Assembly (NCBI RefSeq): GCF_018614205.1 | Contig: NZ_JAGGOS010000047.1 | Location: 1 to 64,000 of the forward strand | DNA length: 64,000 nucleotides | Reading direction: 5' to 3' | Source of the DNA: Streptomyces sp. ISL-36 | Lineage (GTDB): Bacteria > Actinomycetota > Actinomycetes > Streptomycetales > Streptomycetaceae | In this document: piece after piece, positions 19,624 to 52,816 of the stretch | Layout of the letters: the number at the start of each line of letters is the position of its first letter | Numbering within the stretch: the stretch's first letter is position 1 | Notes under the pieces: generated by a model | The model's input: only the letters and a program-made list of their open reading frames with translations | What the model was told of the DNA's origin: nothing | The model's database searches: none | Program-made: the position numbers and the translations under genes

Positions 19624-19697
19624 GCCGCCTTAGCTCAGTTGGCCAGAGCAACGCACTCGTAATGCGTAGGTCTCGGGTTCGAATCCCGAAGGCGGCT
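19624..19697 (+). tRNA. tRNA-Thr (anticodon CGU)
   Basis: A 74-base cloverleaf. The acceptor is GCCGCCT paired with AGGCGGC, the D arm contains TTAGCTCAGTTGG, the anticodon stem-loop GCACTCGTAATGC carries CGT at its centre, and the T arm is GGGTTCGAATCCC. CCA is not encoded. An integrase gene lies directly downstream in the opposite direction, so the 3' part of this tRNA is the probable attachment site of the element that follows. The exact core cannot be defined because no second copy of the T-arm/acceptor sequence was seen in the window. Confidence 0.97.
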
Positions 19698-19702
19698 CCG
19701 GC

Positions 19703-19737
19703 AAAGGCCAGGTCACATAGCCCGTGACCTGGCCTTT
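19703..19737 (+). terminator. Strong terminator after tRNA-Thr
   Basis: A 14-bp perfect stem AAAGGCCAGGTCAC / GTGACCTGGCCTTT with a 7-base loop, followed by T. It begins 6 bases after the tRNA. Because the likely attachment core is the tRNA 3' end, this hairpin probably belongs to the integrated element or marks the old chromosomal flank. Confidence 0.85.
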
Positions 19738-19825
19738 TGTGTTGCTCGGGGTATGACGCGTTACGCGGCCGGGGTGCCGCGAGATGGCTTGCGTGAGCGA
19801 TGCGTGAGCGGAGCGGTCCGGTGCC

Positions 19826-21430
19826 CTACTTCTTGGGCTTCTTCCGCTTGGCCTTCTTCTTGGCCCTAGCCTCGGCTTTCGCCTTGGCCGCCGCCTTCTT
19901 GGCGGCCTTACGGGCGGCCTCCTCCGCCTCGGTCTTCCGCTGAAGCGGGACCAGCCTGGCGGTGGCCTCGGCCGCGTTCTTGCCGACCTGCGGCAGAACG
20001 CTCTGGTAAATGTCCCGCGTAATGCGGGTGTCGCTGTGCCCGAGTGTGTCCGACACGATCTTCACGTCGATGCCGGCGGCGAGCATGAGCGTGGCCGCCC
20101 CGTGCCGGAGGTCGTGCAGCCGGATCGGCGGGAGTCCGGAGGCGGCGACGAGGCGCTCGAAGAGGTCGGTCACCTTGCCCGGATGGAGCCAGGAGCCGTC
20201 TTCCTGGGTGAAGACCATGCCGGTCTCGACCCAGGCTGATCCCCACTCCTCGCGGTCCGCGTCCTGCTGTTCGCGGTGCCGCTTCAGGACGTTGACGGTG
20301 TCGTCGTCGAGCGCGACCACGCGGAAGCCGCTGTCCGTCTTGGGCTCGGAGGTCTCGACCTCCCACCCGTCCTGGACGAGCTGGGCGGAGACGGTCAGGG
20401 AGTGGTCATCGAGGTTGGTCTCCGACCAGGGCTGCGCGCATGCCTCGCCCCGCCGCAGGCCGCGGAAGGCGATCAGGTGCCACATCGCGTACAGCCGGTC
20501 CTCCGCAAGGAAGTCGAGGAACGCTCCGGTCTGTTCGGGCGTCCAGACCATGACGGGGGAGGGCTTCTCGCCCGTCTGCTCCCACCTGGCGACCCGCGCG
20601 TCGGTCCACACCAGGGCCTTCGGCTTGCGCACAGGATCGAGCTCGACATGCGCCGCCGGGTTGAAGGTGAGGATCTGCTGGCCGATCGCGTCGTTCAACG
20701 CAGACCGGAGCGTGGCCTTGATGCGCAGCCGGGTGGCCGGGCCGGTCACACGCCGGAACGGCGGCATGGCATCGATCGCTGTCTTCATCACCTTGCGGCG
20801 GGCGCGGTTGTCCAGGCCCTTCCACGGCACGGTGGCCAGCTCCTCGACCGCGGCACGGCGCTGGGCGTTCTGCTCCAGGATCTCGGCATTGCCGTCGGAG
20901 ATGGCCGTGAACATCTCGCTGAGATGGCTCACGCGCAGCCGATCGAGGCGGTGGTGGCCGATCCGAGGCTTCAAATGGAACCGGATATCGGTCTCGTAGC
21001 GGCTGAGTCCCGACTTGCGGATGCGCTTGCCGTCGAGCCACCGGTCGAGCCACTCGCCGACGGTCAGGCGGCCGATCAGGTCCTGACCGGACTTCAGGCG
21101 CCGCCGGGTCTCCTCGACATCCGGCAGCGGCGACTTCTCGTCGCCGACCTCTTCCAGCATGGCGGCGATCAGCGCCATGCCCTCGGGGTCGTCGGTGTCG
21201 GCGAGGCCGAGCAGCGCGCGTATGTGGTCGAGGTCGGCCTGGGCCGCCTTGAGGCTCTCGTAGCCGGCGCGGCTGAAGGAGCGGCGGGTGCCGTCTTCGC
21301 GGGGCGGGAGTTCCTGGCGTATGGAGTACGAGCCGTGCTTGCGGCTGGAGAGCTTCGGGCACTGCTTACCGAGCGGCTTCCCAGTGTGTGGGTCGCGGCA
21401 GTAGCAGCGGCGGTGGGTGGAACCCTTCAA
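19826..21430 (-). CDS. int: Tyrosine recombinase (integrase)
   Basis: 534 residues. It is the site-specific recombinase for the element at tRNA-Thr. The N-terminal arm-binding region (1-75) is followed by a SAM-like core-binding domain and the catalytic domain with R in AFRGLRRGEA, HDLRHGAATLML, LGHSDTRIT, and the nucleophile Tyr in RDIYQSV. Start is TTG at 21430 (LKGSTHRR) with GAGGAGA about 7 bases upstream; the TTG overlaps the stop of the short upstream frame (TTGA), suggesting coupling. The last ~45 residues are a Lys/Ala-rich tail (AAKKAAAKAKAEARAKKK), unusual for phage integrases and reminiscent of histone-like tails. Confidence 0.93.
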   Translation of the reverse strand: MKGSTHRRCYCRDPHTGKPLGKQCPKLSSRKHGSYSIRQELPPREDGTRRSFSRAGYESLKAAQADLDHIRALLGLADTDDPEGMALIAAMLEEVGDEKSPLPDVEETRRRLKSGQDLIGRLTVGEWLDRWLDGKRIRKSGLSRYETDIRFHLKPRIGHHRLDRLRVSHLSEMFTAISDGNAEILEQNAQRRAAVEELATVPWKGLDNRARRKVMKTAIDAMPPFRRVTGPATRLRIKATLRSALNDAIGQQILTFNPAAHVELDPVRKPKALVWTDARVARWEQTGEKPSPVMVWTPEQTGAFLDFLAEDRLYAMWHLIAFRGLRRGEACAQPWSETNLDDHSLTVSAQLVQDGWEVETSEPKTDSGFRVVALDDDTVNVLKRHREQQDADREEWGSAWVETGMVFTQEDGSWLHPGKVTDLFERLVAASGLPPIRLHDLRHGAATLMLAAGIDVKIVSDTLGHSDTRITRDIYQSVLPQVGKNAAEATARLVPLQRKTEAEEAARKAAKKAAAKAKAEARAKKKAKRKKPKK

Positions 21431-21654
21431 AGATCATTCTCCTCATCGGTGTTGCCGACGGGTGGGTCGACGTCGGCGAGTTCTGGTGGCAGGTGCGGTG
21501 GTGTGCCGCCGTCTTCGTGGATGAAGGCGCGGGCGCTGCGGAGCCGGTACTTGGCTTCCAACACCCTTTCGGCGTAGTCGGCTTGGGCGAGTGCGGCTTC
21601 CTCGCGTTCGGCCTGGTTGGGTGCCGTCTCGGCCTTCCAGCGCTCGTGTTTCTC
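21427..21654 (-). pseudogene. 3' fragment of a small gene upstream of int
   Basis: About 75 codons of protein-like sequence (EKHERWKAETAPNQAEREEA onward, ending GNTDEENDL) in a helical, charged style, ending in a TGA that overlaps the TTG start of int. There is no usable start codon near its apparent 5' end, and upstream translation turns abruptly into arginine-rich shadow sequence at about 21655. In comparable elements an excisionase often occupies this position, but no helix-turn-helix is visible here. I treat it as the remnant of a gene whose 5' part was lost in the rearrangement that also truncated the divergent DUF3631 gene. Confidence 0.5.
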
Positions 21655-21656
21655 TG

Positions 21657-22253
21657 CGCCGCCGGGCCGAGGGCGAGAGCGTGAAGCCCTTCCGCTCCCG
21701 CCGCGACACCCCGGCCCCTCACGACCTGCGCGACCGCATCGCCGCATGGGCCCGGCCGCAGCTCGACGAGGCCGCCGACCTGGAACCGGCGATGCCGGTG
21801 GAGGACCGCGCCGCCGACACCTGGGAACCCCTGGTGATCGTCGCCGACCTCGCCGCCGGCCCCTGGCCACGCCTCGCCCGCGCGGCGTGCGCGCAGATGG
21901 TGACGGCCGAAGCGGAGGCCGAGGAGGACCACCCCAGCTCAGCGCGGATCCTGGCCGACATCCGCCGGGTCTTCGTAGCCCAGCGCGAGGTCGACAGCCT
22001 CTCCACCGACGAACTCCTGCACCACCTGCGCCAGGACCTGGAAGGCCCGTGGGCGGAGTGGGGGCGCAAGGGACTGGGCCCGCGTGAGCTCGGCTCGCTG
22101 CTGCGCGCCTTCGACATCAGGCCCGGCAACGTCCGCCTCGCCGACGGCACCCAGCGCAAGGGCTACACGCGCAACAAGTTCCTCGACGCATGGCGGCGCT
22201 ACTGCCCGACCGTCCACCCGGTCGACACCGGCCCCGGGCGCAGCGAGGGCTGA
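21657..22253 (+). pseudogene. Truncated DUF3631 (element replication/helicase-type) gene
   Basis: About 198 codons matching the C-terminal DUF3631 domain of actinobacterial plasmid and integrative-element replication proteins: RRRAEGESVKPFRSRRD, LRDRIAAWA, PAMPVEDRAADTWEPLV, then RPGNVRLADGTQRKGYTR and FLDAWRRYCP at the end. Normal family members are several hundred residues with an upstream ATPase domain (Walker motifs, DEAD-like segment). That whole part is missing. Similarity begins exactly where the opposite-strand fragment ends (about 21655), marking a deletion or inversion joint. The GTG at 21681 could start a short product, but a functional helicase is impossible. Confidence 0.75.
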
Positions 22254-22270
22254 GACCCACCCAGTCCCCG

Positions 22271-22620
22271 GTTGCCGTCCTTGCCGTCCCTGCCGTAATC
22301 CCGCAGGTCAAACGATATGCAGGCAAGACGGCAACCGGGGCCAGGACGGCAACACGATCACGACCGACGTTGCCGCCCGCCGGGACGCCGCCCACATCCG
22401 TCTTGTGCCGTCCCGGACGTCCCCGCCGTATCACCGCAGGTCACAGCACATGCGGCCGGGACGGCAAGACGGATGCGATCCGTCCGCGGCCACCGAAGCG
22501 CAGCACTCGCCGCGCGTGCGTGCCCCCAGGACGCGCCGCCGTCGGCCAAGACGGAACACCGCCCCCCCTGCCGTACCGGCCCTGACCTGCGCTTGCAACG
22601 GCCGGGACGGCAAAGACGGA
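22271..22620. repeat. Iteron-like repeat block upstream of DUF2637/mob genes
   Basis: Within the 397-base gap 22254-22650 the nonamer CGCAGGTCA occurs at about 22302 and 22435, and its reverse complement TGACCTGCG at about 22583. Each is accompanied by GACGGCAA/TTGCCGTC elements (for example 22278-22290, 22323-22335, 22459-22470, 22605-22618). The second and third copies share GGCCGGGACGGCAA. Spacing is roughly 130-150 bases. This looks like a set of direct and inverted protein-binding sites, such as replication iterons, a transfer origin region, or operator sites, rather than coding sequence. Confidence 0.55.
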
Positions 22621-22650
22621 CCACGCCACACCACCCCAGGAGAACCCCGC

Positions 22651-23517
22651 TTGACCACCCTCTCCACACCCACCCACCGGGACCGTCGCCCTGGCGAAGG
22701 ACGGCCGATGACGAGCAAGCAGGCTGCTGAGCGGTACGCGCTCGTCGCGGCGGGCGTTGTCATCGTGGCGCTCACCGCCGGCGGATTCTGGCTGTCGTAC
22801 GCGCACCTCGCAGAGGTCGCCGGACAGCACGGCCTCAAGAACTCCCCGGTCCGCCAGTGGGCCTGGCCCGCGACCCTGGACGCCTTCATCGTCGCGGGCG
22901 AACTCCTCATGCTCCGCGCGGGTCTGCGCCGCGTTGCCGACGGCTGGGCCATCGCCCTCACCGCCACCGGATCGATCGGTTCCATCGCCCTCAACGTGGC
23001 CGGGGTCAGCGGCACAGGCAACGCCAGCGCCGTGCCTTTCCTCGACTACGTGGTCGCCGCGGTTCCCCCGACAGCCGCGCTTCTGGCCTTCGGCGTCCTG
23101 ATGCGGCAGATCCACCAGCTCGTCGCCGACCCACCCGACGCCACCGAACGCCACAACGGTCTCCCGCAGCCAGCCGGTCTCGACGTGGCGGACGGTCAGG
23201 CCGACGTGGCTCGGGGTGCTGCCGAGGTGGCGCAGGGCCCCGCCACTATGACGGAAACCCCGCAGTCTTCCGCCGAGCCGGAAGACCAGAAGCCCCGCGC
23301 TGTGTCCGACGAGTACCTCGCGATTGCCCGTACCGCGCCACTGGGACGCGGAGACCGTGCCTCGCGCCGCCACATCGAAGCGACGATCCGCGGCAAGGGC
23401 CTCCCGATCGGCAGGGCCGACGCGGAAAAGCTCAAGGACGTCCTGCAAGCCGAACTCGATGAGGCCGCCTCTCAGCGGCAGGACGACCTCGACATGACCC
23501 CCGCCGGCGCTCCCTGA
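22651..23517 (+). CDS. DUF2637 membrane protein (SpdB-like, element transfer/replication associated)
   Basis: 288 residues. Residues ~20-150 form a DUF2637-type membrane domain with about four helices (YALVAAGVVIVALTAGGFWL, then LAEVAGQHGL and SPVRQWAWPATLDAFIVAGE). The C-terminal ~130 residues are soluble, with an Ala/Glu linker and a helical segment (RASRRHIEATIRGKGLPIGR) that looks DNA- or partner-binding. TTG 22651 is chosen because AGGAGA lies 7 bases upstream; ATG 22708 is the alternative. Family members are common in Streptomyces integrative elements and plasmids, often beside mobilization genes as here. A precise role is not established. Confidence 0.8.
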   Translation: MTTLSTPTHRDRRPGEGRPMTSKQAAERYALVAAGVVIVALTAGGFWLSYAHLAEVAGQHGLKNSPVRQWAWPATLDAFIVAGELLMLRAGLRRVADGWAIALTATGSIGSIALNVAGVSGTGNASAVPFLDYVVAAVPPTAALLAFGVLMRQIHQLVADPPDATERHNGLPQPAGLDVADGQADVARGAAEVAQGPATMTETPQSSAEPEDQKPRAVSDEYLAIARTAPLGRGDRASRRHIEATIRGKGLPIGRADAEKLKDVLQAELDEAASQRQDDLDMTPAGAP

Positions 23518-23704
23518 GCCCCCGCGCTCCCATCGCTCCGGTGCAACTCGCATCGCTCGTCCCCGCGCAGGTCCGCGGGGACGAGCGACCGCACCGCAAC
23601 GAGTCAACCCGACACCGCCGCTCCACCCGTCCTCGCCCTGACAGGTATGGGACGAGGTCGACCGGTCACTGACCAGCCATCAACACCCCATGGAGAACCA
23701 CCTC

Positions 23705-24358
23705 ATGCACAACCAGCACCACGAACCCCCATCGCACCAGAAGGAGATGACCACTACCCCAGCCACCAGTGCGCCAGCAAGGTATCCCGCTGGACCGTCC
23801 AAGGACGGCCGCAATGGGGAAGCCTCCGCCCCGGGGGTGGCGGAGGACCTCGGGCGCCAGGGGGCACCCGAGGAGGAACAGATCGCCGACACCGTCGCCG
23901 CCCAGCTGCCGCGCGCCGCCGAAGCCGCCGCACTGCACCGTGTCGCCCGACGCCGCAAGCCTGACCCGAACGGCCAGCGCAAGGAGCGTGTCGATGCCCG
24001 CTACAGCGTCGACGAGAAGACCGAGATCCTCGCCATGGCGCGGTCGCTGAACATCGCCGGCGCCCACTATGTCGGCGCTGTCGTCATGGCCCACGTTCAG
24101 GGCGACCTCGCCCTGCCAGGCCAGCGCACCCTGCTCGACGATTACATCGACGAGCTGACCGCCCTGCGGGGCGAGGTTGCCAAGATCGGCCACAACATCA
24201 ACCAGATCGCCAAGAAGCTCAACTCCGGCGGCCGTCCACAACCTGGGGATACCGCGCTCCTGACCCAGGCCGAACGCACCCTAACCGCGGTCGGCGCCAC
24301 CGTCCGCCACATCGCGGCAGCCGCGAACCAGGCCGTCACCAAGAAGGCCGCCCGATGA
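23705..24358 (+). CDS. MobC-like mobilization accessory protein
   Basis: 217 residues. The N-terminal ~85 residues are low-complexity; the core (RKERVDARYSVDEKTEIL, then AGAHYVGAVVMAHV) is a ribbon-helix-helix-like DNA-binding region. The stretch ALRGEVAKIGHNINQIAKKL is the signature helix of bacterial MobC proteins, which help the relaxase open the transfer origin. The ATG at 23705 is chosen for its GGAG spacing. Its stop overlaps the relaxase start by four bases (ATGA), so the two are translationally coupled. Confidence 0.85.
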   Translation: MHNQHHEPPSHQKEMTTTPATSAPARYPAGPSKDGRNGEASAPGVAEDLGRQGAPEEEQIADTVAAQLPRAAEAAALHRVARRRKPDPNGQRKERVDARYSVDEKTEILAMARSLNIAGAHYVGAVVMAHVQGDLALPGQRTLLDDYIDELTALRGEVAKIGHNINQIAKKLNSGGRPQPGDTALLTQAERTLTAVGATVRHIAAAANQAVTKKAAR

Positions 24359-26073
24359 TCGCGAAGATCCGCAGCGGCAAGGAAACCGCCGGACTGATCC
24401 GGTACCTGTTCGACACGAAGAAGGCCAAGGATCACACCGACCCCCATCTGGTCGCCTCCTGGGACGGCTTCGCCCCCGACCCCGGCCACGCCGACGACTT
24501 CGACGCCACCAGGAAGCTCCTCGTGGCCGACCTGGACCTGCACGTCAAGCAGGCCCGGAGGCTCGGCCGCGCGCCCGAGCAGCACGTGTGGCACTGCTCG
24601 ATCCGAGCCGCCGAGAGTGACCGCATCCTCAGCGACGAGGAGTGGGCCGACATCGCCCGCCGCGTTGTGACGGCCACCGGCATAGCACCGCAAGGCGATT
24701 CGGACGGATGCCGCTGGGTCGCCGTCCGCCACGCCCCCGACCACATCCACATCGCCGCCACCAAGGTCCGGGCGGATCTACGCACCGCACGCCACTGGAA
24801 CGACTACCACACCGCCGACCGCGAACTCGCCGCCATCGAGAAGGAATACGGCCTGCTCCAAGTCGTACGCGGTGACCGCACCGCCGCGAAGCGGACCACC
24901 CGTGCCGAGCAGGAGAAGGCCCGCCGCGCCGGCCAGGAGAAGCCTGCCCGCGAACGTCTGCGCGCCACCGTGCGCACCGCTGTGGCCGCCGCCACCAGCG
25001 TGGAGGAGTTCGTCCACCTGCTCAACCACCTCGACGGCGTGCTCGTGGAGGTCGTCCACTTCCCCTCGGGTGACGTGCGCGGCTACAAGGTCGCCAGAGA
25101 AGACACCACCACCGCCGACAATGAGCCCGTCTGGTTCTCCGGCTCCGAACTCGCCCCGGACCTCTCCTTCCCAAAGATCCAAAAGCGCCTGGAGAGCATT
25201 GACCCACAATCCGCTGACAAGCCAGGCCGGCGCAGGCTCAACCCCTGGCACCAGGCCACCGCCGCCGCCGAACGCATCCCCCACCACCTCGACCAGACGG
25301 ACGACGAAGCCTCCCAGGCCCACCTCGCCGCCTTCGGTGAAGCCCTCGACGCCCTCCCCCTCCTCGCCCCCCAGCCCCTACGCCCCCAACTCCGAGAGGC
25401 AGCGACCGAGTTCGAGCGCGCCACCCGCTCTCGCATCCGGGCCGAACACCACCACGCCCGCGCCCTACGCGGCGCCGTACGCGCCATGCTCCGCGAGCCC
25501 GCCCCCAAGGACGGCGCCGCCCTGGCGATGTTCCTAGACGCGGCGATCCTCGTGGTCGTTGCCGCTGCCCGCTGGCACCAGCTCCGCCACCACGACCAGC
25601 AGGTCGCCGCCGCCCACCAGACCCTGCTCCACCTCCAGGCCGCCTACGACCAAGCCGCAGCCGCACCCCTGGCCTCCCTCGCGCAGCGCCAGCCACCCCA
25701 GCAGGCCGTGGAACGGCAGATCCGCCGCCTACGCCAAGTCGTGCCCGAGCACGCGGAGCAGATCATCGAAGACCCCGCTTTCGCGGCTCTCACCACCGCC
25801 CTCTCCGAGGCAGAAGCAGCCGGACACGACCCGGAACAGCTCCTCCAGCAGGTCACCGACCAGCGCGCCCTGAACGACGCGCGCCGCCCCGCCCGGGTCC
25901 TGGCCTGGCGCATCCAACGCCTCAGCGAAAGGCCGGCACCCAGCGCACAGGCCCGCGCAGCACAAGCCCACAGCCCAGCCTGGGCCGACAGCGCGGCACG
26001 GCGCCCCGACGCTCCAGAGCACACGGCAGCAGCCGCCCCGGCCCCGCAGCCGTCACAGGCACGACGGCGCTGA
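24355..26073 (+). CDS. Relaxase / mobilization nuclease
   Basis: 572 residues. The N-terminal ~200 residues are a MobA/VirD2-type relaxase beginning MIAKIRSGKETAGLIRYLF. The metal-binding histidine motif is RHAPDHIHIAATKVR at about residues 125-138. The remainder is helical (Ala/Arg/Gln-rich), with no helicase motifs. It nicks the transfer origin and pilots DNA during mobilization. Paired with MobC and lacking any neighbouring DNA translocase in this window, it implies transfer that depends on another element's machinery. The origin of transfer is probably in or near the repeat block at 22.3-22.6 kb or the 23518-23704 gap. Confidence 0.88.
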   Translation: MIAKIRSGKETAGLIRYLFDTKKAKDHTDPHLVASWDGFAPDPGHADDFDATRKLLVADLDLHVKQARRLGRAPEQHVWHCSIRAAESDRILSDEEWADIARRVVTATGIAPQGDSDGCRWVAVRHAPDHIHIAATKVRADLRTARHWNDYHTADRELAAIEKEYGLLQVVRGDRTAAKRTTRAEQEKARRAGQEKPARERLRATVRTAVAAATSVEEFVHLLNHLDGVLVEVVHFPSGDVRGYKVAREDTTTADNEPVWFSGSELAPDLSFPKIQKRLESIDPQSADKPGRRRLNPWHQATAAAERIPHHLDQTDDEASQAHLAAFGEALDALPLLAPQPLRPQLREAATEFERATRSRIRAEHHHARALRGAVRAMLREPAPKDGAALAMFLDAAILVVVAAARWHQLRHHDQQVAAAHQTLLHLQAAYDQAAAAPLASLAQRQPPQQAVERQIRRLRQVVPEHAEQIIEDPAFAALTTALSEAEAAGHDPEQLLQQVTDQRALNDARRPARVLAWRIQRLSERPAPSAQARAAQAHSPAWADSAARRPDAPEHTAAAAPAPQPSQARRR

Positions 26074-29466: not shown

Positions 29467-30567
29467 CTAATCCCACGATGCCAGAGCATCGTTTACCGAA
29501 GGAGCGTTCTTCGCCAGGGTCGTCCGCCAGTCAAGGTGACCGCGGTGCTGAAGGTGACCGACGATAACGATGCGCGCCACGCCAAGCTCAACGGCCATCT
29601 GATTGACCCAACGCGCACCGATACGATCTGGGACGTCAGGAATGCCGTGCGGGAAAACCCACTCCGCCGCCTCCGCGTCTGCGTCCTTCTCCCATTTCGT
29701 TTCATTGCCTTGAGTCTCATCGAGCCCCTCGACGATGAGGTGTTCAGCGTCGACGTGGTCAAGCAAGATATGCGCAATCTCATGCAAAAGAGTAAATAGG
29801 ATCTTGTCGAGTCTTTTGCCACGACCAGACAAGCCAATAACTGGATATCCGTCGACCAGCATCGAGCACCCGTCAATCTTGGCGCCCGGAAGCGATTCGA
29901 CATATACCAGACGCACACCAACTGCACTAAAAAGGTCAGGTAGGTCCTCGAAGTCAGCGGCCGACTTGAGTGTGCGCGAAAGAGTGCCTGCAAGCTCCCT
30001 CAGACGTTTCGCGCAGTATCTCTCCTGAGGCGGAAGCTTACGTGCTTCCCTTCTAATACACGCGACCCATGCTCGCTGCAGCGAGCTGATATCTTCGCTA
30101 CGGTTGGCTCGTCTAGCAGCCGCTGCGAATCCGGGCTCGTCATCAAGGGAATCCAGCTCGAAAAGTTCCTTCACCTCGGCCTCGAGGGCATCCAAGGTGG
30201 CGCCGGTGAGAAAGCCGCGCCTCTTCAATAGCTGGATTGGCCCCTTGTCGTTTAGGCGGGCACGCCGACGCACCTCGTCCAACTTTACCTGGGCGTTCTC
30301 ATTCTTGAACTGCTCGGCGAGTAGGTACTGGTCCTGAAGGTTGAGCCAGTACTCAGCTGTATGACCAAGGGCCGCGCCGATCTGCGCCGCCGACTCCCTG
30401 GTGATCTCCTTTTTGCCGGTGACGATCTCGGAGACGAACTGAGTCGGGCGATCCAGAACCGCAGCGAAATCAGCCTGAGACCAGTCCCTGGCCTCGAGCT
30501 CCCTCCCGAGGAGTTCGCCAACCGGCACCTGGGCGATCGGCAGCGGGTCGTGTGGAGGGGTGCTCAT
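29467..30567 (-). CDS. XRE-family regulator fused to ImmA/IrrE metalloprotease (antitoxin-like)
   Basis: 366 residues. Residues ~13-70 form a HigA-type helix-turn-helix (LEARDWSQADFAAVLDRPTQ, then EIVTGKKEITRESAAQIGAA). Residues ~180-320 are an ImmA/IrrE domain with the zinc-protease motif LLHEIAHILLDH and a downstream acidic helix DADAEAAEWVF. Proteins of this build act as antitoxins or as repressors inactivated by proteolysis. The GTG/ATG region overlaps the stop of the upstream HigB-like gene by four bases, so the two form one operon. It probably binds the two palindromes at 30888 and 30979. GC content is lower than the core. Confidence 0.85.
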   Translation of the reverse strand: MSTPPHDPLPIAQVPVGELLGRELEARDWSQADFAAVLDRPTQFVSEIVTGKKEITRESAAQIGAALGHTAEYWLNLQDQYLLAEQFKNENAQVKLDEVRRRARLNDKGPIQLLKRRGFLTGATLDALEAEVKELFELDSLDDEPGFAAAARRANRSEDISSLQRAWVACIRREARKLPPQERYCAKRLRELAGTLSRTLKSAADFEDLPDLFSAVGVRLVYVESLPGAKIDGCSMLVDGYPVIGLSGRGKRLDKILFTLLHEIAHILLDHVDAEHLIVEGLDETQGNETKWEKDADAEAAEWVFPHGIPDVPDRIGARWVNQMAVELGVARIVIVGHLQHRGHLDWRTTLAKNAPSVNDALASWD

Positions 30568-30890
30568 CGCGAGGCTTCCATCTCTGGAGTCAATAGCTCG
30601 AAGATCACGGCACTGTGGCTCTCTGTGCTCTTGAACGTCAAGTTGATAACGCGGCCTGAACTCAACTTCGCCCGCGCCTTGTTCAGGTCATGGGTGTCAC
30701 CGGGGTGGATGCGCAACATGCGCGAGTTCCGCAGGTCGGCGTCGAGCCGAGCTGCACGCGCGCACTGAACGAGGACGCGAAAGTCCGAGACCTCCCGGGC
30801 GCTCCAGCCTTGCGGCCGGAATCCGGGGTCCGTAGCGAGGCGATACAACTCCTCATCCATGTACTCCCGGTCCACGTGCCTGTTCTCCAT
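30564..30890 (-). CDS. HigB/RelE-like toxin candidate
   Basis: 108 residues from ATG 30890. It is small and basic, lies immediately upstream of and overlapping the XRE-ImmA gene, and has the length and position of the HigB-type mRNA interferase in higBA modules. Sequence such as LVQCARAARLDADLRNSR, LRIHPGDTHDLNKARAKL and RVINLTFKSTESHSAVI shows the alternating helix/strand order of the RelE fold, but catalytic residues cannot be assigned by eye. The start codon lies inside palindrome 1 (30888-30906), consistent with autorepression. It could instead be a regulatory partner rather than a toxin. Confidence 0.55.
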   Translation of the reverse strand: MENRHVDREYMDEELYRLATDPGFRPQGWSAREVSDFRVLVQCARAARLDADLRNSRMLRIHPGDTHDLNKARAKLSSGRVINLTFKSTESHSAVIFELLTPEMEASR

Positions 30891-30906
30891 CACCCATCGG
30901 CTGATG
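30888..30906. promoter_or_regulatory. Operator-like palindrome 1
   Basis: CATCACCCATCGGCTGATG: 8-base arms around a 3-base spacer with one arm mismatch. It overlaps the start of the HigB-like gene and matches palindrome 2 at 17 of 19 positions. Confidence 0.65.
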
Positions 30907-30978
30907 ACGCTTCTACCTACTTCGCGCGGATTCTACAGGCATCACCGAATTTCTGGGCCGCCAACCTCGCATCTACCC

Positions 30979-30997
30979 CATCACCCATGGGGTGATG
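30979..30997. promoter_or_regulatory. Operator-like palindrome 2
   Basis: CATCACCCATGGGGTGATG: perfect 8-base arms CATCACCC / GGGTGATG around ATG. Its centre is 91 bases from palindrome 1 and 75 bases upstream of the ubiquitin-like gene start, placing it in the shared divergent control region. Confidence 0.7.
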
Positions 30998-31062
30998 ATG
31001 TTGATGCTACACTCGCATCCGAGCCCGTCGATCAGCGGAGGGCGCCATGGAAGGGGACTGTC

Positions 31063-31341
31063 ATGACTGCACCCAGTAACGAGCAGGAGCATGACAAGAG
31101 GGATAAAGGGTTCGAAGTGATCATCAACGGCACAATGGTCACCCTCGACCACGACACCGTGACCTATGACGAACTTGGGCAGCTCGCGTACCCCGGCCAC
31201 GACCCGCAGGCGATGTTCACCGTCACCTACAAGAACGCCATTGCACCCCATGGCGGGGACGGCATCCTGGTCGCCGGCGAGTCCGTGAAGGTCAAGAAGA
31301 AGGGCACGTACTTCCATGTCCGGCTCACGACTCGTTCGTAG
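31063..31341 (+). CDS. Bacterial ubiquitin-like protein (Multi_ubiq-type, single domain)
   Basis: 92 residues from ATG 31063, with AAGGGGA 7 bases upstream. After a ~16-residue charged leader the domain reads FEVIINGTMVTLDHDTVTYD, then ELGQLAYPG, FTVTYKNAI, a GESVKVKKKG turn, and ends YFHVRLTTRS. This is the beta-grasp pattern of the prokaryotic multi-ubiquitin family, including the terminal F-x-V-x-x-T-x-x-S. There is no Gly-Gly tail, which is normal for this family. Only one Ubl unit is present, whereas many relatives have several. It is the presumed modifier activated by the ThiF protein whose gene overlaps it by 26 bases. Confidence 0.85.
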   Translation: MTAPSNEQEHDKRDKGFEVIINGTMVTLDHDTVTYDELGQLAYPGHDPQAMFTVTYKNAIAPHGGDGILVAGESVKVKKKGTYFHVRLTTRS

Positions 31342-32587
31342 TAGCGCCGACCTGGCCCGTCTGGTGCAAGACGGGTACTCCGTCCGCGTCGTCAACGGGT
31401 TCCTCGTAATCGACGACATTCCGTTCGTGGACGATGCCGCCCAGGTTCAGTGGGGATCCTTCATCTGCCCGCTGGATCTGAGCGGCGACACCGCGACGGC
31501 TCCGAGTAGCCACGTTATGTGTTTCGTTGGCGGCGTACCCCGCAACAAGAATGGCGAGCCCATCGACGGGCTCGTAAACGATGGCGTTCAGAAGTGGTCT
31601 GCCAGCCCGGAGCTCACCGCGAGCTGCGGCTTCTCCCAGAAACCCGCGGGCGGCTATCCAGATTATTACGAAAAGGTCACCCAGTACGCCGCGATGGTCA
31701 TCGGGCCAGCCCAGGCCATCGACCCCGAGGCGACCCCGCTGACCTTCAAGCCTGTCGAGACCGACGAAGACGATGGTGTGTTCCGCTACCTCGACACATT
31801 CTCCAGCAGGGCTGGCATCACCGAGGTCAACGCGCGCCTCGCGCTGAAGAAGGTTGTGATCGTCGGTCTCGGGGGTACTGGCGCATACCTGCTCGACCTG
31901 CTCGCCAAGACCCCGATACACGCGCTTCATCTCTACGACGGCGACGTCCTCCGCACGCATAACGCCTTCCGGGCCCCCGGTGCCGCGAGCCTTGCGGACC
32001 TACAGGAGGGCCTGAAGAAGGTCGAGTACTTCACACGGATGTATTCGCAGATGCGTCGTCACATCGAGGCTCACCCGGTGAACGTCACCTCTGAAAACGT
32101 CGGCGAACTCCTCGACGCCGATTTTGTGTTCCTTGCGATGGACACGGGCCCGGACAAAAAGGCCATCATCGAGGCGCTGACCGTCAACGGTATCCCATTC
32201 ATCGATACTGGTGTTGGGGTCAGCAAGGATGCCGAATGCATCGACGGGCAAATTCGCATCACGACGTCTCTTCCGGGTCGCGTGGAGCATATTGAGCGAG
32301 ATGGGCTCATCTCGTACTTCGCCGGGGAGGGCGCCGAGTACGACACCAACTTGCAGGTAGCCGAGCTGAACTCCTCCACTGCGAACTTGGCAATCTTCCG
32401 GTATAAGAAGTACCTCGGTTTTTATGCTGACACTGAGAACGAGCTGCACACCGTGTATGCGGTCGGCTCGAATGATCTCTACAACCGCTACGGCACCTCT
32501 ACCAACCAAGACGAGGGCATCGGACTGGGCGCCGAGCCGGTCCCGGCCAGCGCTGATGCTGGGGACGGGTCGGAGGCCGCCGCGTGA
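31316..32587 (+). CDS. E1-like ThiF-family adenylyltransferase with N-terminal E2-like/DUF6791-type region
   Basis: 423 residues. Residues ~180-330 are a ThiF/E1 Rossmann fold: KKVVIVGLGGTGAYLLDLLA binds ATP, LYDGDVLRTHN supplies the adenylation Asp, and LLDADFVFLAMDTGPDKKAI contains the metal-binding Asp. Residues ~1-170 (SFICPLDLSGD, SSHVMCFVGGVPRNKNGEPI) resemble the domain that precedes ThiF in Ubl operons, labelled DUF6791 in my memory and possibly E2-like. A cysteine in SKDAECIDGQIR is a candidate thioester or structural residue. It presumably adenylates the Ubl tail. It overlaps the Ubl gene by 26 bases and the next gene by four. Confidence 0.85.
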   Translation: MSGSRLVRSSADLARLVQDGYSVRVVNGFLVIDDIPFVDDAAQVQWGSFICPLDLSGDTATAPSSHVMCFVGGVPRNKNGEPIDGLVNDGVQKWSASPELTASCGFSQKPAGGYPDYYEKVTQYAAMVIGPAQAIDPEATPLTFKPVETDEDDGVFRYLDTFSSRAGITEVNARLALKKVVIVGLGGTGAYLLDLLAKTPIHALHLYDGDVLRTHNAFRAPGAASLADLQEGLKKVEYFTRMYSQMRRHIEAHPVNVTSENVGELLDADFVFLAMDTGPDKKAIIEALTVNGIPFIDTGVGVSKDAECIDGQIRITTSLPGRVEHIERDGLISYFAGEGAEYDTNLQVAELNSSTANLAIFRYKKYLGFYADTENELHTVYAVGSNDLYNRYGTSTNQDEGIGLGAEPVPASADAGDGSEAAA

Positions 32588-33012
32588 GAGCTCGATCCTT
32601 GATGCCGGTGTTCATCGAGCACATCCCGGCCGAACCCGAGCCGGGTAAGCTGTACATCTCGATGCAGTTCGAAACCGCAGTCCATCTGTGCGCGTGCGGA
32701 TGTGGTGCGAAGGTCGTCACACCATTCGGACCGCACGACTGGACCCTGACCTTCGATGGCACCGTGTCCCTGCGACCGTCCGTTGGAAACGGACAACAGC
32801 GGTGTAGGTCGCACTACTACGTCCGCAGCGACCGTATCGACTGGTTGCCGCGAATCTCAGCGGCAGCCACTCGAGTCGCTAGCTCCCGCGACCGCGCCGC
32901 GCACATCGAGGCCATCCCTCAACCTCTGGCGGGACAAGCGTCTTGGTGGCGCCGGATTTGGAACCGAATGCGACGCTCCTTTGGCACCAGCCGTAGCAAA
33001 CGGGATGAATAA
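32584..33012 (+). CDS. DUF6527 protein of ubiquitin-like operon
   Basis: 142 residues, GTG start inside the preceding stop (GTGA). Signature elements are HLCACGCGAKVVTPFGPHDW and SLRPSVGN, followed by QQRCRSHYYVRSDRIDWLP: a CxCGC metal-type cluster, then a P-S-x-G-N and C-x-S-H-Y core. This is the DUF6527 family, which I know as a recurring member of multi-ubiquitin/ThiF operons, where a ligase, carrier or protease role has been proposed. The C-terminal ~45 residues are basic. It is the last gene of the three-gene Ubl operon. Confidence 0.85.
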   Translation: MRARSLMPVFIEHIPAEPEPGKLYISMQFETAVHLCACGCGAKVVTPFGPHDWTLTFDGTVSLRPSVGNGQQRCRSHYYVRSDRIDWLPRISAAATRVASSRDRAAHIEAIPQPLAGQASWWRRIWNRMRRSFGTSRSKRDE

Positions 33013-33279: not shown

Positions 33280-34683
33280 TCAGACGTCGATGCGGGCGAC
33301 CTTACGGCCGACCTTCAGGTACAGCTCGGCACCTTCGAGTGCCCCAACCTCGCTCACGACCTCACCGAGCGTCTGCTGCACGGACGCCTCGGTGAGCGGC
33401 GTAGGTGCCTGCTCTCCGTCCGCCTCAAGGATCAGACGAAGACCCTTCTGCTGAGCCACACGGCGCACGGCGGAGATGCTGGGAGCGAAGTCCAGCGTGC
33501 GGCTGATCAGCGCCCCGAGTGTGTCCTGGCCGTGGTCCTTCAGGGAGATGACGGGGAGGTTCTGGGTGCCCGCGAAAGAGCGCTTGGAGAAGCGCGCCGT
33601 GAACTCCGCGCGAGCGGCGGCAGCAGCGTCCAGGCCGTGGAGGGCGGCCACCACCTCGCCGGCGAGGATGCGCTTGATCGCCATCGGGTGCGCGGTCCCT
33701 TCCTCCAGGCGCTTGGTGACCACGCGGATCTCGTCGTCCGTCCACTCGGTGAGCAGCTGGAGGTACGGCTCGGTCAGGTGGTCGGGGATGGACATCAGCC
33801 GGCCGTAGACGTCATCAGGCGACGCCGTCAGGCCCACGTAGTTGCCCTTGCTCTTGCTCATCTTGGTGCCCGTGCCGTCGGTGCCCTCGATGAGCGGGGT
33901 GGTGATGACGACCTCGGGGTCCTGCTCCGAGATCTCCATGACCTTGCGGCACATCTGGAGGTTCAACAGCTGGTCTACACCGCCGAGTTCGACGTCGGCG
34001 TCGATGGCCACGGAGTCCCATGCCATGACGACGGAGTAGACGAACTCGGCGACGGACAGCCCATGGCCATCGGCCAGCCGGGTGCGGAAGTCCTCGCGCT
34101 GGAGCGACATGGAGACCGGCACCCGGGCAAGAACCCCGACGAGCTCCGGCAGAGTGACCTTGTTCAGCCACTCGCCGTTGAAGCGCAGGTCGGCACGCTC
34201 GAAGTCGATGAACGGCGTGACCTGTTGCTGGTAGCCGCTCAGGTTGCGGGCGATGTCCTCGTCGGTGAGGGGCGGTCGATCCGAGGACCGTCCCGACGGG
34301 TCACCGATCTTGGCCGTCACGTCACCGATGATGAAGACGACGTGGTGGCCCATCCGCTGGAACCGGCTGGCGATGATGATCGGTACCGCGTGGCCCAGGT
34401 GGACGTCGGGCGAGGTCGGGTCGATGCCGTACTTGACGACGAACGGGCGTCCGGCGGCCTGCGCGGCTTCGATCTTCTCGGCGAGCACCGCGGCCGAGGG
34501 GATCAGGTGGTTCGCACGCCCCTCGACCAGTGCGGCCTGCTCCTCGGGGGAGAGGTCGGAGAGGTCCAGGGAGCGCCGTGCCGTTGTCTCGCTGAGCAGC
34601 TGCGCGGCCGTATAGTCCGCGCCCAGGTCCGCCCCATCGAGGATGTGCATGACACGGGTGACAGACTCACTCAAACGGCTCAT
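33280..34683 (-). CDS. tyrS: Tyrosyl-tRNA synthetase (accessory copy?)
   Basis: 467 residues. Class I synthetase: HIGH signature in PDVHLGHAVP (residues ~92-100), active-site strand GDVTAKIGDPSGRSSDRPPL, the VELGGVDQLLNLQ region and KMSKSKGNYVGL (~residue 274). The C-terminal ~70 residues form an S4-like RNA-binding domain. All catalytic motifs are intact, so it should charge tRNA-Tyr. The ~60-residue helical N-terminus is unusual. Its place at the end of a biosynthetic-looking operon, next to a defence module, differs from the usual housekeeping locus; I suspect a second tyrS serving self-resistance or precursor activation. ATG 34683 with AGGAG ~12 bases upstream. Confidence 0.9.
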   Translation of the reverse strand: MSRLSESVTRVMHILDGADLGADYTAAQLLSETTARRSLDLSDLSPEEQAALVEGRANHLIPSAAVLAEKIEAAQAAGRPFVVKYGIDPTSPDVHLGHAVPIIIASRFQRMGHHVVFIIGDVTAKIGDPSGRSSDRPPLTDEDIARNLSGYQQQVTPFIDFERADLRFNGEWLNKVTLPELVGVLARVPVSMSLQREDFRTRLADGHGLSVAEFVYSVVMAWDSVAIDADVELGGVDQLLNLQMCRKVMEISEQDPEVVITTPLIEGTDGTGTKMSKSKGNYVGLTASPDDVYGRLMSIPDHLTEPYLQLLTEWTDDEIRVVTKRLEEGTAHPMAIKRILAGEVVAALHGLDAAAAARAEFTARFSKRSFAGTQNLPVISLKDHGQDTLGALISRTLDFAPSISAVRRVAQQKGLRLILEADGEQAPTPLTEASVQQTLGEVVSEVGALEGAELYLKVGRKVARIDV

Positions 34684-34780
34684 GGCGCTTATACGCTCCT
34701 GGGTCGGACAACTGGCCGGACCAGTAGGGATTGGAAGCGGCGATTTTATCATCGCCACCCCCGTCGAATCACCGAAATGA

Positions 34781-35692
34781 TCACGGTTCAGCCCGCTCTC
34801 CCTGGGTCGTCGAGAGCTGTACCAGCGGCCGGCCCACGATCGCACTGGAGAGGGAGCGGAGCCACGGGGCTATTGGGTCTCGGGCTCGGAGCGTGGCGAT
34901 GAGCATCCCCGGAAGGAAGATCATGGCGGGGAGGTGCTTCTTTCGCTGCAGCGCGGATTCCACTCTGTGCCCGGAAGCGAGTACGCGGAAATGCTGGGAG
35001 ATCCCCCTGAGCTGGCGAGTGGTCGCCCAGGTGGGAGGGTTCCCATCCATCATGCGGAGCCGATCCGAGAGTCCCAGACACACCTCGGCCCGATAATCCT
35101 GCGACAGGCCGGGCGTACTTCGGTCGGTCATGCTGTGCGAGTGGACCCGATAGAAGGTCAACGGGTCCTGGAGGACGGCACCGCGGCCAGCCTCGCGCAG
35201 CGCGTGGAAGAAGATCTCGTTGGTCACCGGCAGGAGGCTGAGGGCAGCCTCGCGATGGACCACCAACGTGCTCGTGTTTCCGCCCGGGTGTGGGCCTTTC
35301 AGCTTGGGGTTTCCGTTGGAGTCGACGACGTTCTCCCAGTGCTCGATGAACAGCGTTTCACCCGTCATCGCCTCGGCGCATGTACGGAGCTTCGATGGGT
35401 GGAACCAGTCATCGGCGTCGAGCGGAGCCACCCAGTCGCCTGTGCTGAGGAGAAAGGCGTCGGTCAAGGTTTGGCCGAAACCTTGCTGGCTCCTCCGGAT
35501 GACCTTGACGTTCTTTTCGTGGCGACGGCATACCTCCTCAGTTTTGTCGTTGGATCCGTCGTCGATGACGATGATTTCGTGAAGGACGAAGTTTCCAGGC
35601 TCCTGTTCCAGACAGCTTGTTATGGCCTGGTCGAGATATCGGCCGTAGTTGTGGCACAGGATCACGCACGAAATACGCGGAATGGCGCTCAC
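34781..35692 (-). CDS. Family 2 glycosyltransferase (GT-A)
   Basis: 303 residues. The N-terminus SAIPRISCVILCHNYGRYLD and HEIIVIDDGSNDKTEEVCRR bind the nucleotide-sugar, and APLDADDWFHPSKL is the DxD metal motif. No membrane helix is apparent. It overlaps the preceding glycosyltransferase stop by four bases (ATGA) and precedes tyrS by 97 bases. Sugar donor and acceptor are not deducible; within this operon it likely decorates the pathway product. Confidence 0.85.
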   Translation of the reverse strand: MSAIPRISCVILCHNYGRYLDQAITSCLEQEPGNFVLHEIIVIDDGSNDKTEEVCRRHEKNVKVIRRSQQGFGQTLTDAFLLSTGDWVAPLDADDWFHPSKLRTCAEAMTGETLFIEHWENVVDSNGNPKLKGPHPGGNTSTLVVHREAALSLLPVTNEIFFHALREAGRGAVLQDPLTFYRVHSHSMTDRSTPGLSQDYRAEVCLGLSDRLRMMDGNPPTWATTRQLRGISQHFRVLASGHRVESALQRKKHLPAMIFLPGMLIATLRARDPIAPWLRSLSSAIVGRPLVQLSTTQGERAEP

Positions 35693-49300: not shown

Positions 49301-49568
49301 CACGGCGGCCGATGTAGAAGGTGTCCGACTCTTCGCCCGGCTGGACCTTGACGCGGCTGACGACCAGCGACGCGTCCCCGAGGCCGGCGTATTCTGCGGC
49401 CTTCTGCTCGGCGTCCTTCCGGTTGGCGACGCTGTCCTTGCCGCTGGCGGAGGCCGCGGCGATCGAGCCGCCGCTCAGTTCGGCCAGTCGCTTCTCATAG
49501 CAGTCGTAGGCGCGGTCCACCGCCTTCTGCTCTTCGGCGATGATCTCGTCGCGCGTGGTGGTGCTCAT
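46399..49568 (-). pseudogene. HelD/UvrD-like DNA helicase split by a frameshift
   Basis: Two reading frames together make one ~1056-residue protein. The first frame runs from ATG 49568 to about 48650 (helical N-terminus, FYIGRRAVSDVETRETVVVL, Walker A VVQGGPGTGKSAVGLHRVTW near residue 240, QMNRLWDGDVSF). The second continues from about 48650 to 46399 (LLQEAREGDGSYRERRNRFR, HIVIDEAQDLTPMQARSLRR, LRQLYVALTRSTQSLTVLHT). One missing base near 48650 accounts for the break. HelD relatives displace stalled RNA polymerase and are ~700-750 residues; this one has ~300 extra C-terminal residues. A sequencing error would make it intact; otherwise it is inactive. Confidence 0.8.
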
Positions 49569-49675
49569 GTACGTCCCCTCCCCCTGCGGCGCTCCAAGAG
49601 ACGCCGCGCGCCGGGCATATGCCCGGCCCCCGGCAAAAGACTTATCAGACGCATGGGCCAGCTGTGAATATTCGG

Positions 49676-50050
49676 TCAACGAGGCAATTCCCGTACTAGT
49701 TCGCTGACTTCCGCACGCCATGAGTGGACCTGGTCTCGGGTAGGACCGATCTCGTACTGGTGGTAGTGGCACCCGAGGCAGAGGTGCGACCAGACGGCGT
49801 TGGCCCTGCGGGCGATGGTCGCGGCGGTGTAGCAGCGCAGGCAGAGCATCTTCGCCCGCGTGGTGATGCCGGCCAGTCCCGGCATCGCGGCGTCGAGCGT
49901 GCGGTCGACCGCGATCTCCAGGGCGGTCCGCAGCGCTAGGGAGGCTCCACGGTGCCGACCGGCCGCCGAGGCTTCGACGCTGGGGTCGGAGAGCAACTGG
50001 TCGGCTGTCAGCAGCAGCTCGTCGATCGAAGTACTTGCGGCGCCGGTCAC
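49676..50050 (-). CDS. Small zinc-finger-like protein coupled to Rad50-like ATPase
   Basis: 124 residues from GTG 50050, overlapping the ATPase stop by four bases (GTGA). The N-terminal 75 residues are helical (ASTSIDELLLTADQLL, ALRTALEIAVDRTLDAA). The C-terminal half has CLRCYTAATIARRANAVWSH then CLGCHYHQYEIGP: two CxxC pairs 20 residues apart with adjacent histidines, a likely zinc-binding knuckle. It is not a standard HNH motif, though HNH degeneration cannot be excluded. Coupling implies it works in stoichiometric partnership with the ATPase, possibly as its nuclease, adaptor or sensor. Confidence 0.7.
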   Translation of the reverse strand: MTGAASTSIDELLLTADQLLSDPSVEASAAGRHRGASLALRTALEIAVDRTLDAAMPGLAGITTRAKMLCLRCYTAATIARRANAVWSHLCLGCHYHQYEIGPTRDQVHSWRAEVSELVRELPR

Positions 50051-52506: not shown

Positions 52507-52816
52507 TGGGAAGCTCCTTGATCCGGTACTTGACTGGGAGGTGGCGCAACAGCTGTGCTGCGGGGGCGTCGGGTTATCCGCGTGCGTCGGTTCCGATGAG
52601 CTCGACACCCAGAGATGTCGGAGATGACGAAGTCGACAGGGGCGGCGGTCGGTCGCCGATGGCGTGCGCGCGTCGCACGTACGCCGGTGGGCGGTTCCCC
52701 GTCAGCGGTCAGCCGCCGAGGGTGTACTCGAGGCCGTCTGCTCGAAGGGCGGCCTCCGCGTGAGAGCGCCGTCTCGGGACACCTCTCAGGCGGCCGGGGA
52801 GGGAGACTCCTCGACG
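52507..52816. other. 310-base gap upstream of the ATPase
   Basis: No gene seen on either strand. It should hold the ATPase promoter on the minus strand and the 3' flank of the downstream-facing membrane protein gene. Confidence 0.5.

Follow-up and report, generated by a model that had tools for sequence, protein, structure and literature searches.

A compact Ubl-E1-DUF6527 operon of Streptomyces sp. ISL-36 with a serine-ended ubiquitin-like protein and probably unusual tagging chemistry

The usual account of ubiquitin-type tagging rests on a C-terminal glycine of the tag and a chain of cysteine thioesters. The chemistry of the Bub operons is reportedly non-cysteine or oxyester. These operons encode a ubiquitin-like protein (Ubl), BubA, an E2, BubB, and a JAB-E1 protein, BubCD (PDB 9ea4, 9eae and 9eav); in the parts of the literature available on them, protection against phage is not demonstrated. 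The type 6e polyUbl operons of Iyer 2006 (PMC1779556) include, in the accessible part of that account, a branch in which another domain replaces the JAB; a Frankia case is marked there with this 'domain X', and Amac is listed with a solo Ubl. The original prediction was right that Ubl-E1-DUF6527 sets are already known. By its sequence features, the operon described here is a member of this JAB-less 'domain X' branch of the type 6e operons, sister to the Bub operons; we infer that DUF6791 corresponds to domain X and DUF6527 to protein Y. It lies in a 64,000-nucleotide stretch of Streptomyces sp. ISL-36 DNA, the whole of which we call the window, and comprises the following features:

31063-31341, plus strand: Ubl gene, 92 aa, one Multi_ubiq domain, C-terminus ...FHVRLTTRS
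31336-31338, plus strand: codon (TCG) of the Ubl C-terminal serine, a residue that is Ser in 33/33 loci
31316-31341, plus strand: overlap of the Ubl and E1 genes, 26 nt
31316-32587, plus strand: E1-like gene, 423 aa, DUF6791 (aa 11-161) followed by a ThiF adenylation domain (from about aa 165)
32584-33012, plus strand: DUF6527 gene, 142 aa, putative zinc site C36, C38, C40, C74, H77

All three open reading frames were recovered with the predicted coordinates, strand and overlaps, the second of which, between E1 and DUF6527, is 4 bases. The family assignments held as well, with every Pfam match above its curated cut-off: in the profile check the 92-residue protein matches Multi_ubiq (PF14452, E=6.9e-13), the E1-like protein matches DUF6791 (PF20590, E=2.4e-49) and ThiF (E=1.4e-12), and the 142-residue protein matches DUF6527 (PF20137, E=2.8e-22). 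Neither of the two findings that the original prediction named as fatal to it occurred. The E1-like protein also matches NCBIfam PRK06153.1-4 (E=5.1e-128).

Our comparisons rest on 33 aligned loci, that of Streptomyces sp. ISL-36 included, which form 31 clusters at 90% E1 identity and 21 at 60%. Two loci were left out, L001 as the same DNA as the ISL-36 locus and L012 as below the cut-off and carrying internal stop codons; the viral-contig loci L035-L037 stand outside these counts and served only for modelling and spot checks. The record of L019 is without annotation, and its genes were read by ORF search. The gene order Ubl-E1-DUF6527 is kept in all 33 loci; the Ubl/E1 overlap is 26 nt in 30 and 41 nt in the other three, and it is also 26 nt in the viral-contig loci L036 and L037. 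For the operon, dN/dS is 0.15-0.40 against L003, L004 and L013, where dS frequently approaches or exceeds 1; against L002, which is nearly identical, the ratio is 0.26-0.56. The Ubl gene by itself gives 0.26-0.36 against L003, L004 and L013. These values indicate that the three ORFs are maintained genes and not chance frames.

The Ubl ends in serine in all 33 loci, the named ones of which come from five phyla, and this serine is the sole invariant column of the Ubl. It is encoded by TCG, TCA, TCT, TCC or AGC, and the E1 residue read over the same codon is Arg in 13 loci, His in seven, Leu in seven, Pro in five and Ala in one; since the serine is fixed while the overlapping E1 residue varies, selection acts on the Ubl frame. 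The orphan Ubl of viral-contig locus L036 ends in Ala. In the last ~80 Ubl residues no column has Cys in four or more of the 33 loci. The Ubl profile of these loci matches PDB 9cd2, a 'multi-ubiquitin domain protein', with E=3.1e-19. Judged from the sequences, the C-terminal serine argues against the standard Gly-dependent thioester route.

In the E1-like protein, the adenylation residues G184, G186, G187, G189, D208, D210, H215, R219 and K235 are present in 33/33 loci, with D276 in 31 and N216 in 29. Cysteines are scattered: the commonest column, after P75, is occupied in 19 of the 33 loci (Streptomyces sp. ISL-36 has R76 there) and the second commonest in 12, and the E1s of L008 and L029 have no Cys anywhere. 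The family, as its alignment reads, keeps the adenylation residues and lacks a conserved catalytic cysteine. With a tag that ends in Ser and not Gly, and an E1 without a conserved Cys, the system probably works by chemistry different from that of ordinary ubiquitin. Our E1 model is of moderate quality (pLDDT 68.5, built from 7 sequences) and gives Z 20-23 to E1, ThiF and MoeB structures; its ThiF part (167-388) ranks BubCD (9ea4) first, at Z 23.2 with rmsd 2.5 over 210 aligned residues, only narrowly ahead of the human SUMO E1 (Z 22.2) and ThiF (Z 21.7). Y342 was considered as the exact equivalent of BubCD Y370 and rejected, as the alignment places the two in different columns of a gappy region.

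The DUF6791 domain has H66, S107, K120 and Y124 in all 33 loci and K109 in 32. Its profile finds nothing significant among PDB sequences (best E 1.3), and a literature search by domain name returned no publication for DUF6791 or DUF6527. Two identities tried for it gained no support: a hidden E2 (hhalign against the Bub E2, probability 0.3 on a 0-100 scale; 64/100 block shuffles score as high against the E2 profile locally and 44/100 globally) and a JAB relative (hhalign probability 0.1 on the same scale). The predicted order of its elements and an S-x-K motif resembled the WSRH loop of BubB, a likeness unsupported by profile comparison. Within the operon, strongly conserved cysteines were found only in the DUF6527 protein, which has C36, C40, C74 and H77 in 33/33 loci and C38 in 32. 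Its model had no Foldseek match at E <= 0.001, and its VIA-align scores did not exceed Z 2.4, which does not imply a new fold.

The E1 matches 117 plasmid records, 108 of these over at least 80% of its length, and named plasmids with the cassette come from Actinomycetota, Pseudomonadota, Bacteroidota, Cyanobacteriota and Bacillota. Twenty-two of the 117 records, hand-picked for spread of organisms and identity, were examined. The Bub E2 family (Prok-E2_E) occurs in 0/22 DUF6791-branch plasmids vs 6/6 JAB-type ones, and a JAB at the cassette in 0/22 vs 5/6, by the same Prok-JAB model; in the sixth JAB-type record, L057, that model matches only elsewhere on the plasmid, and the N-terminal region nevertheless aligns with other JABs. 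In Streptomyces sp. ISL-36 itself, no Prok-E2_E was found in the genome, in a search whose 14 controls were silent and for which the positives come from the plasmid search; Pfam finds no JAB in the E1, and the single Prok-JAB match of the genome lies on another contig. The expectation of an operon with no separate E2 or JAB was borne out. The idea that its one-Ubl version is exceptionally minimal was not: one-domain-sized Ubl genes occur in 18 of the 33 loci (the Ubls of ISL-36 and L002 being measured from their ATG), and having neither E2 nor JAB is the usual state of the branch. Among 50,697 phage records tblastn gave no E1 match; in viral contigs a first scan found no E1, and a second, with a profile, found L035-L037 and the partial match L038.

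Upstream of the operon lies a divergent gene pair with putative operators, and farther upstream are the genes of a mobile element:

19624-26073: element genes, with tRNA-Thr by ARAGORN
19826-21430, minus strand: tyrosine integrase (Phage_integrase 4.2e-18)
23690-24358: MobC (MobC 3.8e-7)
24355-26073: relaxase (Relaxase 8e-9)
29467-30567, minus strand: Xre/HigA-type HTH fused to an ImmA/IrrE-like peptidase, 366 aa (PADLOC PD-Lambda-2_B 9.4e-29)
30564-30893, minus strand: HigB/RelE-like small protein, 109 aa, divergent from the Ubl operon
30887-30907, plus strand: putative operator copy 1, a 21-nt repeat at the start of the HigB-like gene
30978-30998, plus strand: putative operator copy 2, ATCACCC-ATG-GGGTGAT, about 65 nt upstream of the Ubl start

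The HTH-ImmA protein matches TIGR02607 antidote_HigA just below cut-off (2.1e-12), with Pfam HTH_3 and Peptidase_M78 also below cut-off, and has counterparts in L002, L003, L004 and L013. The HigB/RelE-like protein has no convincing HMM match of its own and no PADLOC match; it shares 32.6% identity across 92 aa with a Micrococcus protein in the same position, annotated as a RelE/ParE toxin. The two operator copies are 90% identical, and the pattern written from both is expected 0.01 times in shuffles. Similar repeat pairs, 97-103 nt apart, precede the Ubl gene in L003, L004 and L013, the pair in L004 being inverted. Four related loci likewise carry the HigB-like/HTH-ImmA pair and its duplicated operator (29467-30998 in ISL-36) together with the cassette. 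The integrase and relaxase genes beside the operon probably belong to an integrated mobilizable element; for its right end, a short-word blastn search found no repeat of the tRNA-Thr 3' end within the window. A type I restriction-modification set lies about 23-29 kb downstream of the operon, so the surroundings agree with the predicted ones, element genes on one side and a second defence set nearby. An immune role read from this genomic context is plausible.

We propose that the operon is a ubiquitin-like conjugation system, the DUF6791 branch of the 6e/Bub group, with direct adenylation of the Ser-ended Ubl and cysteine-independent transfer, a reading to which we give roughly even chances. 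Stress, probably DNA damage or phage attack, would activate the ImmA-type protein and derepress both divergent promoters, and translation of the Ubl and E1 genes would be coupled through their 26-nt overlap. The E1 would then adenylate the Ubl's own C-terminal serine without proteolytic maturation, and the Ubl would reach its target with no cysteine thioester formed on the E1, either directly or via an oxygen nucleophile; candidates for the latter are S107 of DUF6791, with H66, K109 and K120, and Y342 of the crossover region. The zinc-type DUF6527 protein, which also occurs in JAB-type Bub operons, may recruit or position the target as an E3-like partner. As DUF6791 does not significantly resemble the E2 or JAB profiles, the transfer step is one that we infer. 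Counterpoints to the proposal include the narrow lead of BubCD among the structural matches, the misaligned Y342, the moderate quality of the E1 model, the Ala end of the orphan Ubl in L036 and the lack of demonstrated phage protection in the available Bub descriptions. In addition, DUF6527 could provide a catalytic cysteine in trans, namely C38, and the Cys after P75 is present in the E1 of most loci, though not that of Streptomyces sp. ISL-36.

Other chemistries have to be weighed against this. MccB acts on the microcin C7 precursor, and the substrates of MccB and PaaA, both ThiF-fold enzymes, are peptides. Both are among the profile and structure matches of the E1, which may likewise alter the Ubl's own C-terminus by adenylating the terminal serine, so that a nucleotidylated or otherwise altered Ubl is a signal or toxin and no protein is conjugated. 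An invariant non-Gly terminal residue suits such residue-specific chemistry, as do an E1 with no conserved Cys and a cassette with no Bub-type E2 and no JAB; however, the top structural match is BubCD, in complex with BubB and BubA according to the PDB titles, and DUF6527 is annotated in 5/6 JAB-type loci, all six of which have the E2 family. We consider this reading unlikely. A thioester route in which DUF6527, acting like an E2, accepts the Ubl on C38 from Ubl-AMP formed by the E1 would account for the concentration of conserved cysteines in DUF6527 and for C38, which is extra to the CxxxC...CxxH set and nearly always kept. It is quite unlikely, considering that L009 and the JAB-type L059 have Ser in place of C38, that the DUF6527 model has no convincing PDB match, and that some viral contigs contain a DUF6527 gene standing alone, no E1 being found within the fetched flanks.

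Equally low is the probability that DUF6791 takes over the role of JAB in processing or deconjugation, an E2 not being needed. The domain occupies the place of JAB before ThiF and has its own invariant H66, S107, K120 and Y124, and the accessible text of Iyer 2006 (PMC1779556) speculated so for domain X, noting conserved charged residues; yet it has no profile similarity to JAB, and the Ubl already ends at its invariant residue, with nothing beyond to trim. A sulfur-carrier pair of the ThiS/MoaD type, suggested by ThiF homology, has hardly any likelihood: the Ubl has a C-terminal Ser and no Gly in 33/33 loci, and the column of ThiF Cys184 is Leu in the ISL-36 E1, in a gappy part of the alignment. 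Compatible with any chemistry, the cassette might be a stability or stress module of plasmids and integrated elements and not an antiphage system. The 117 plasmid matches, the toxin-antitoxin-like divergent pair and the lack of demonstrated phage blocking in the available Bub descriptions favour this, but the WYL and HTH+ImmA regulators that lie near some relatives belong to types which the accessible part of PMC13373217 describes for immune operons, and we hold it to be somewhat unlikely.

Taken as a whole, the cysteine-independent conjugation that we prefer would amount to a widespread Ubl branch without an E1 or E2 cysteine thioester, in which a Ser-ended tag is activated directly, oxygen chemistry takes place on the E1-fused DUF6791, the zinc DUF6527 selects targets and the stress switch of this actinobacterial group is a HigB/HTH-ImmA pair; we offer this full picture tentatively, at somewhat under even chances. 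If it is true, a branch in at least five phyla has kept the activation site, dropped the cysteine and given its tag a Ser end, and tagging logic can run on other chemistry. If there is no conjugation, the operon would be a clear case of the E1 fold put to another purpose. The three-gene set is small enough for test-tube reconstitution.

Among known systems, PD-lambda-2 (Vassallo et al. 2022, PMC9519451) shares with the upstream module a HigB-like protein next to an Xre-HTH-peptidase fusion. PADLOC matched its second component here and not its first; in the accessible text its third component, a P4-antitoxin relative, is required for defence, whereas the neighbour here is the divergent Ubl operon. 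The last 74 residues of PDB 9cd2 ('ZDHYS365 multi-ubiquitin domain protein') are those that match the Ubl profile, and the protein ends ...TDKS; it has 222 aa, compared with 92 here. The Bub operons share the Multi_ubiq Ubl, the E1 fold and, in most JAB-type loci, the DUF6527 gene. They differ in having Prok-E2_E and a JAB where this operon has DUF6791, and in a Ubl that, after processing, probably ends in Gly where ours ends in Ser; PDB 9eav uses BubA(155-229), and the close BubA homologue in L055 reads NNG at 227-229, so that one construct boundary and one homologue suggest Gly as the terminal residue of the JAB branch. A further close relative is the 'domain X' subset of type 6e (PMC1779556), with which, in the part of that account available, the operon shares a Ubl protein with 1-3 domains, a non-JAB N-terminal domain on the E1 and a small, putatively metal-binding protein. 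The zinc signature given there is C-x3-C-x35-38-H-x2-C, compared with C36-x3-C40-x33-C74-x2-H77 here, and a JAB gene is said there to be generally fused or adjacent in 6e, in contrast to its absence from the cassette in the 22 DUF6791-branch plasmids. The operon type, as the same source indicates, has been known from sequence since 2006; the accessible text contains neither a C-terminal Ser nor an E1 cysteine analysis, and the present work measured the Ser end and the missing conserved E1 Cys over 33 loci.

The original prediction of overlapping ubiquitin-like (Ubl), E1-like and DUF6527 genes is borne out; the three open reading frames lie where predicted, with overlaps of 26 and 4 bases:

31063-31341, + strand, Ubl gene (92 residues)
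31316-32587, + strand, E1 gene (423 residues)
32584-33012, + strand, DUF6527 gene (142 residues)

The families also agree with it: the 92-residue protein matches Multi_ubiq (Pfam, 6.9e-13), the E1-like protein matches DUF6791 (2.4e-49) and ThiF (1.4e-12), and the third protein matches DUF6527 (2.8e-22). NCBIfam assigns the E1 to PRK06153.1-4, and its matches to the PADLOC E1-E2 models are modest (best 6.7e-10); the Ubl and DUF6527 proteins have no PADLOC match. The operon belongs to a kind known since its description by Iyer and colleagues in 2006 (PMC1779556).

We aligned 33 loci, namely the window, 22 plasmid loci and 10 others, forming 31 clusters at 90% E1 identity and 21 at 60%; the named ones come from Actinomycetota, Alpha-, Beta- and Gammaproteobacteria, Bacteroidota, Cyanobacteriota and Bacillota. 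The order Ubl, E1, DUF6527 is the same in all 33. The Ubl and E1 genes overlap by 26 nt in 30 loci and by 41 nt in three; the E1 and DUF6527 genes overlap by 4 nt in 16 of 33, using the DUF6527 start closest to the E1 end. The Ubl gene is one domain in size at 18 of 33 loci (16 stop-to-stop frames of at most 123 residues, plus the window and the homologous locus L002, both measured from ATG). The Bub E2 family is absent from all 22 whole plasmids of this DUF6791 branch and was detected in all six JAB-type control plasmids. JAB matches occur on 4 of the 22, one under the cut-off, but none at the cassette, where the same model detects JAB in 5 of 6 JAB-type controls. Thus, a single Ubl without E2 or JAB, which had been taken for a minimal version, is the rule for the cassette.

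The last residue of the Ubl is Ser in 33/33 loci, the sole invariant column of the alignment; Thr at -4 (30/33), Val at -7 (32/33) and Phe at -9 (30/33) are also kept. The terminal Ser is encoded by TCG (13), TCA (7), TCT (7), TCC (5) or AGC (1), and the E1-frame residue over this codon is R (13), H (7), L (7), P (5) or A (1). As both codon and overlapping E1 residue vary, the Ser is conserved as Ubl product, not as E1 or DNA. One exception was seen: just past its complete cassette, locus L036 carries an additional, orphan Ubl gene in the reverse orientation (L036:7516-7743, -), whose product ends in NNA; the operon Ubls of this locus and of L037 are Ser-ended.

All 33 E1s keep the glycine loop, D208, D210, H215, R219 and K235, and most keep N216 (29/33) and D276 (31/33). 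With adenylation roles as in MoeB/ThiF, this would be the residue set that an active adenylating enzyme requires. The commonest E1 Cys column reaches 19/33 (Arg, R76, in the window) and the next 12/33; two E1 proteins (L008 and L029) contain no Cys. At the position of E. coli ThiF Cys184, where the alignment is gappy, the window E1 has Leu. No column in the last ~80 Ubl residues has at least four Cys across the 33 loci. This family-wide combination, a tag that ends in Ser and an activating enzyme free of cysteine, is what raises the operon above routine. Two residues are candidate oxygen nucleophiles: S107 of DUF6791 (33/33), with nearby K109 in 32/33, and Y342 (32/33). H66, K120 and Y124 of DUF6791 are also invariant. 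JAB-type E1s have a conserved Tyr (Y370 numbering; 6/6 by eye in the alignment), which is mutated to Phe in PDB 9eav; its exact equivalence to Y342 was rejected, as the two tyrosines are not directly aligned.

The E1 model (pLDDT 68.5, built from 7 sequences) best matches Citrobacter BubCD over its ThiF part only (Z 23.2, rmsd 2.5, 210 residues, model 167-388); the lead is narrow, with SUMO E1 at Z 22.2 and ThiF at Z 21.7. The DUF6527 model has a good core (mean pLDDT 86) and no convincing match among solved structures.

DUF6791 is sporadic in genomes and common on plasmids. It occurs in 1 of 61 related genomes, namely the window's own, and, counting that genome (~8 Mb), in 3 of 396 of the phylum sample and 7 of 394 of the class sample, one under the family cut-off. 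On plasmids, tblastn with the E1 gives 117 matching records, and in 108 of these the match spans 80% or more of the protein. The nearest of three named contigs carrying the E1, from Streptomyces pseudovenezuelae, is 96% identical to the window across 13.3 kb round the operon, which suggests a Streptomyces-like host.

The operon lies 5 kb past a relaxase gene and downstream of a tyrosine integrase gene that adjoins tRNA-Thr; the element's right end was not found in the window. Further downstream, at 55.8-61.9 kb, are type I restriction-modification genes. Beside them, at 46399-52608 (-), a partial GajB-like helicase match and the ORF adjoining it lie with a gene for an SMC-like AAA ATPase, possibly a further defence system. 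The genome's stronger tyrS match is on another contig, and the gene at 33280-34845 (-) encodes a second, divergent tyrosyl-tRNA synthetase; its neighbours (glycosyltransferase, methyltransferase, second class I synthetase-like, radical SAM and phosphorylase-type genes) perhaps form with it a biosynthetic cluster.

Two genes upstream run divergently from the operon; one encodes a HigB-like protein, the other a fusion of HTH and ImmA that matches PD-Lambda-2_B (PADLOC, 9.4e-29). Both genes are colinear with the operon in L002, L003 and L004, and L013 has counterparts of both. Two 21-nt repeats, 91 nt apart, mark the ends of the intergenic space (2 in the window versus 0.01 expected from shuffles, with a pattern derived from these same copies); similar pairs, 97-103 nt apart, occur in L003, L004 and L013. 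Among 21 annotated plasmid loci, four have a WYL gene near the cassette (L015, L025, L027, L030) and four an HTH and ImmA/IrrE pair (L016, L026, L029, L031). CapW or CapH+CapP, called DNA-damage responsive, adjoin 219 of 544 Bub operons, the DUF6791 branch not necessarily among them (PMC13373217).

Other genes accompany related loci. On four plasmids (L018, L020, L021, L024), a UvrD-helicase gene directly precedes the Ubl gene and shares its strand; in L030 a RecB-like nuclease gene takes this place. In a Bub-like operon of JAB type from Bradyrhizobium, a phosphotransferase-like gene (L058:3279-4883) separates E1 from DUF6527. IMG/VR viral contigs (L041-L053) carry DUF6527 genes (e.g. L041:4007-4279), and no Ubl or E1 was found in the flanks examined, which were at most 4 kb long. 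In some of these DUF6527 proteins the C74 ligand is missing, with YHAHY replacing CxSHY. It is possible that the domain is used on the phage side.

According to a general statement by Iyer and colleagues, a JAB is fused to or adjoins such E1s (PMC1779556); this does not hold in our 22 plasmids. A solved multi-ubiquitin protein, PDB 9cd2, is also Ser-ended (TDKS). The JAB branch appears to differ, as a Gly end is suggested to be exposed there by the NNG at 227-229 of L055, which is closely homologous to the PDB proteins, together with the boundary of the PDB construct, BubA(155-229).
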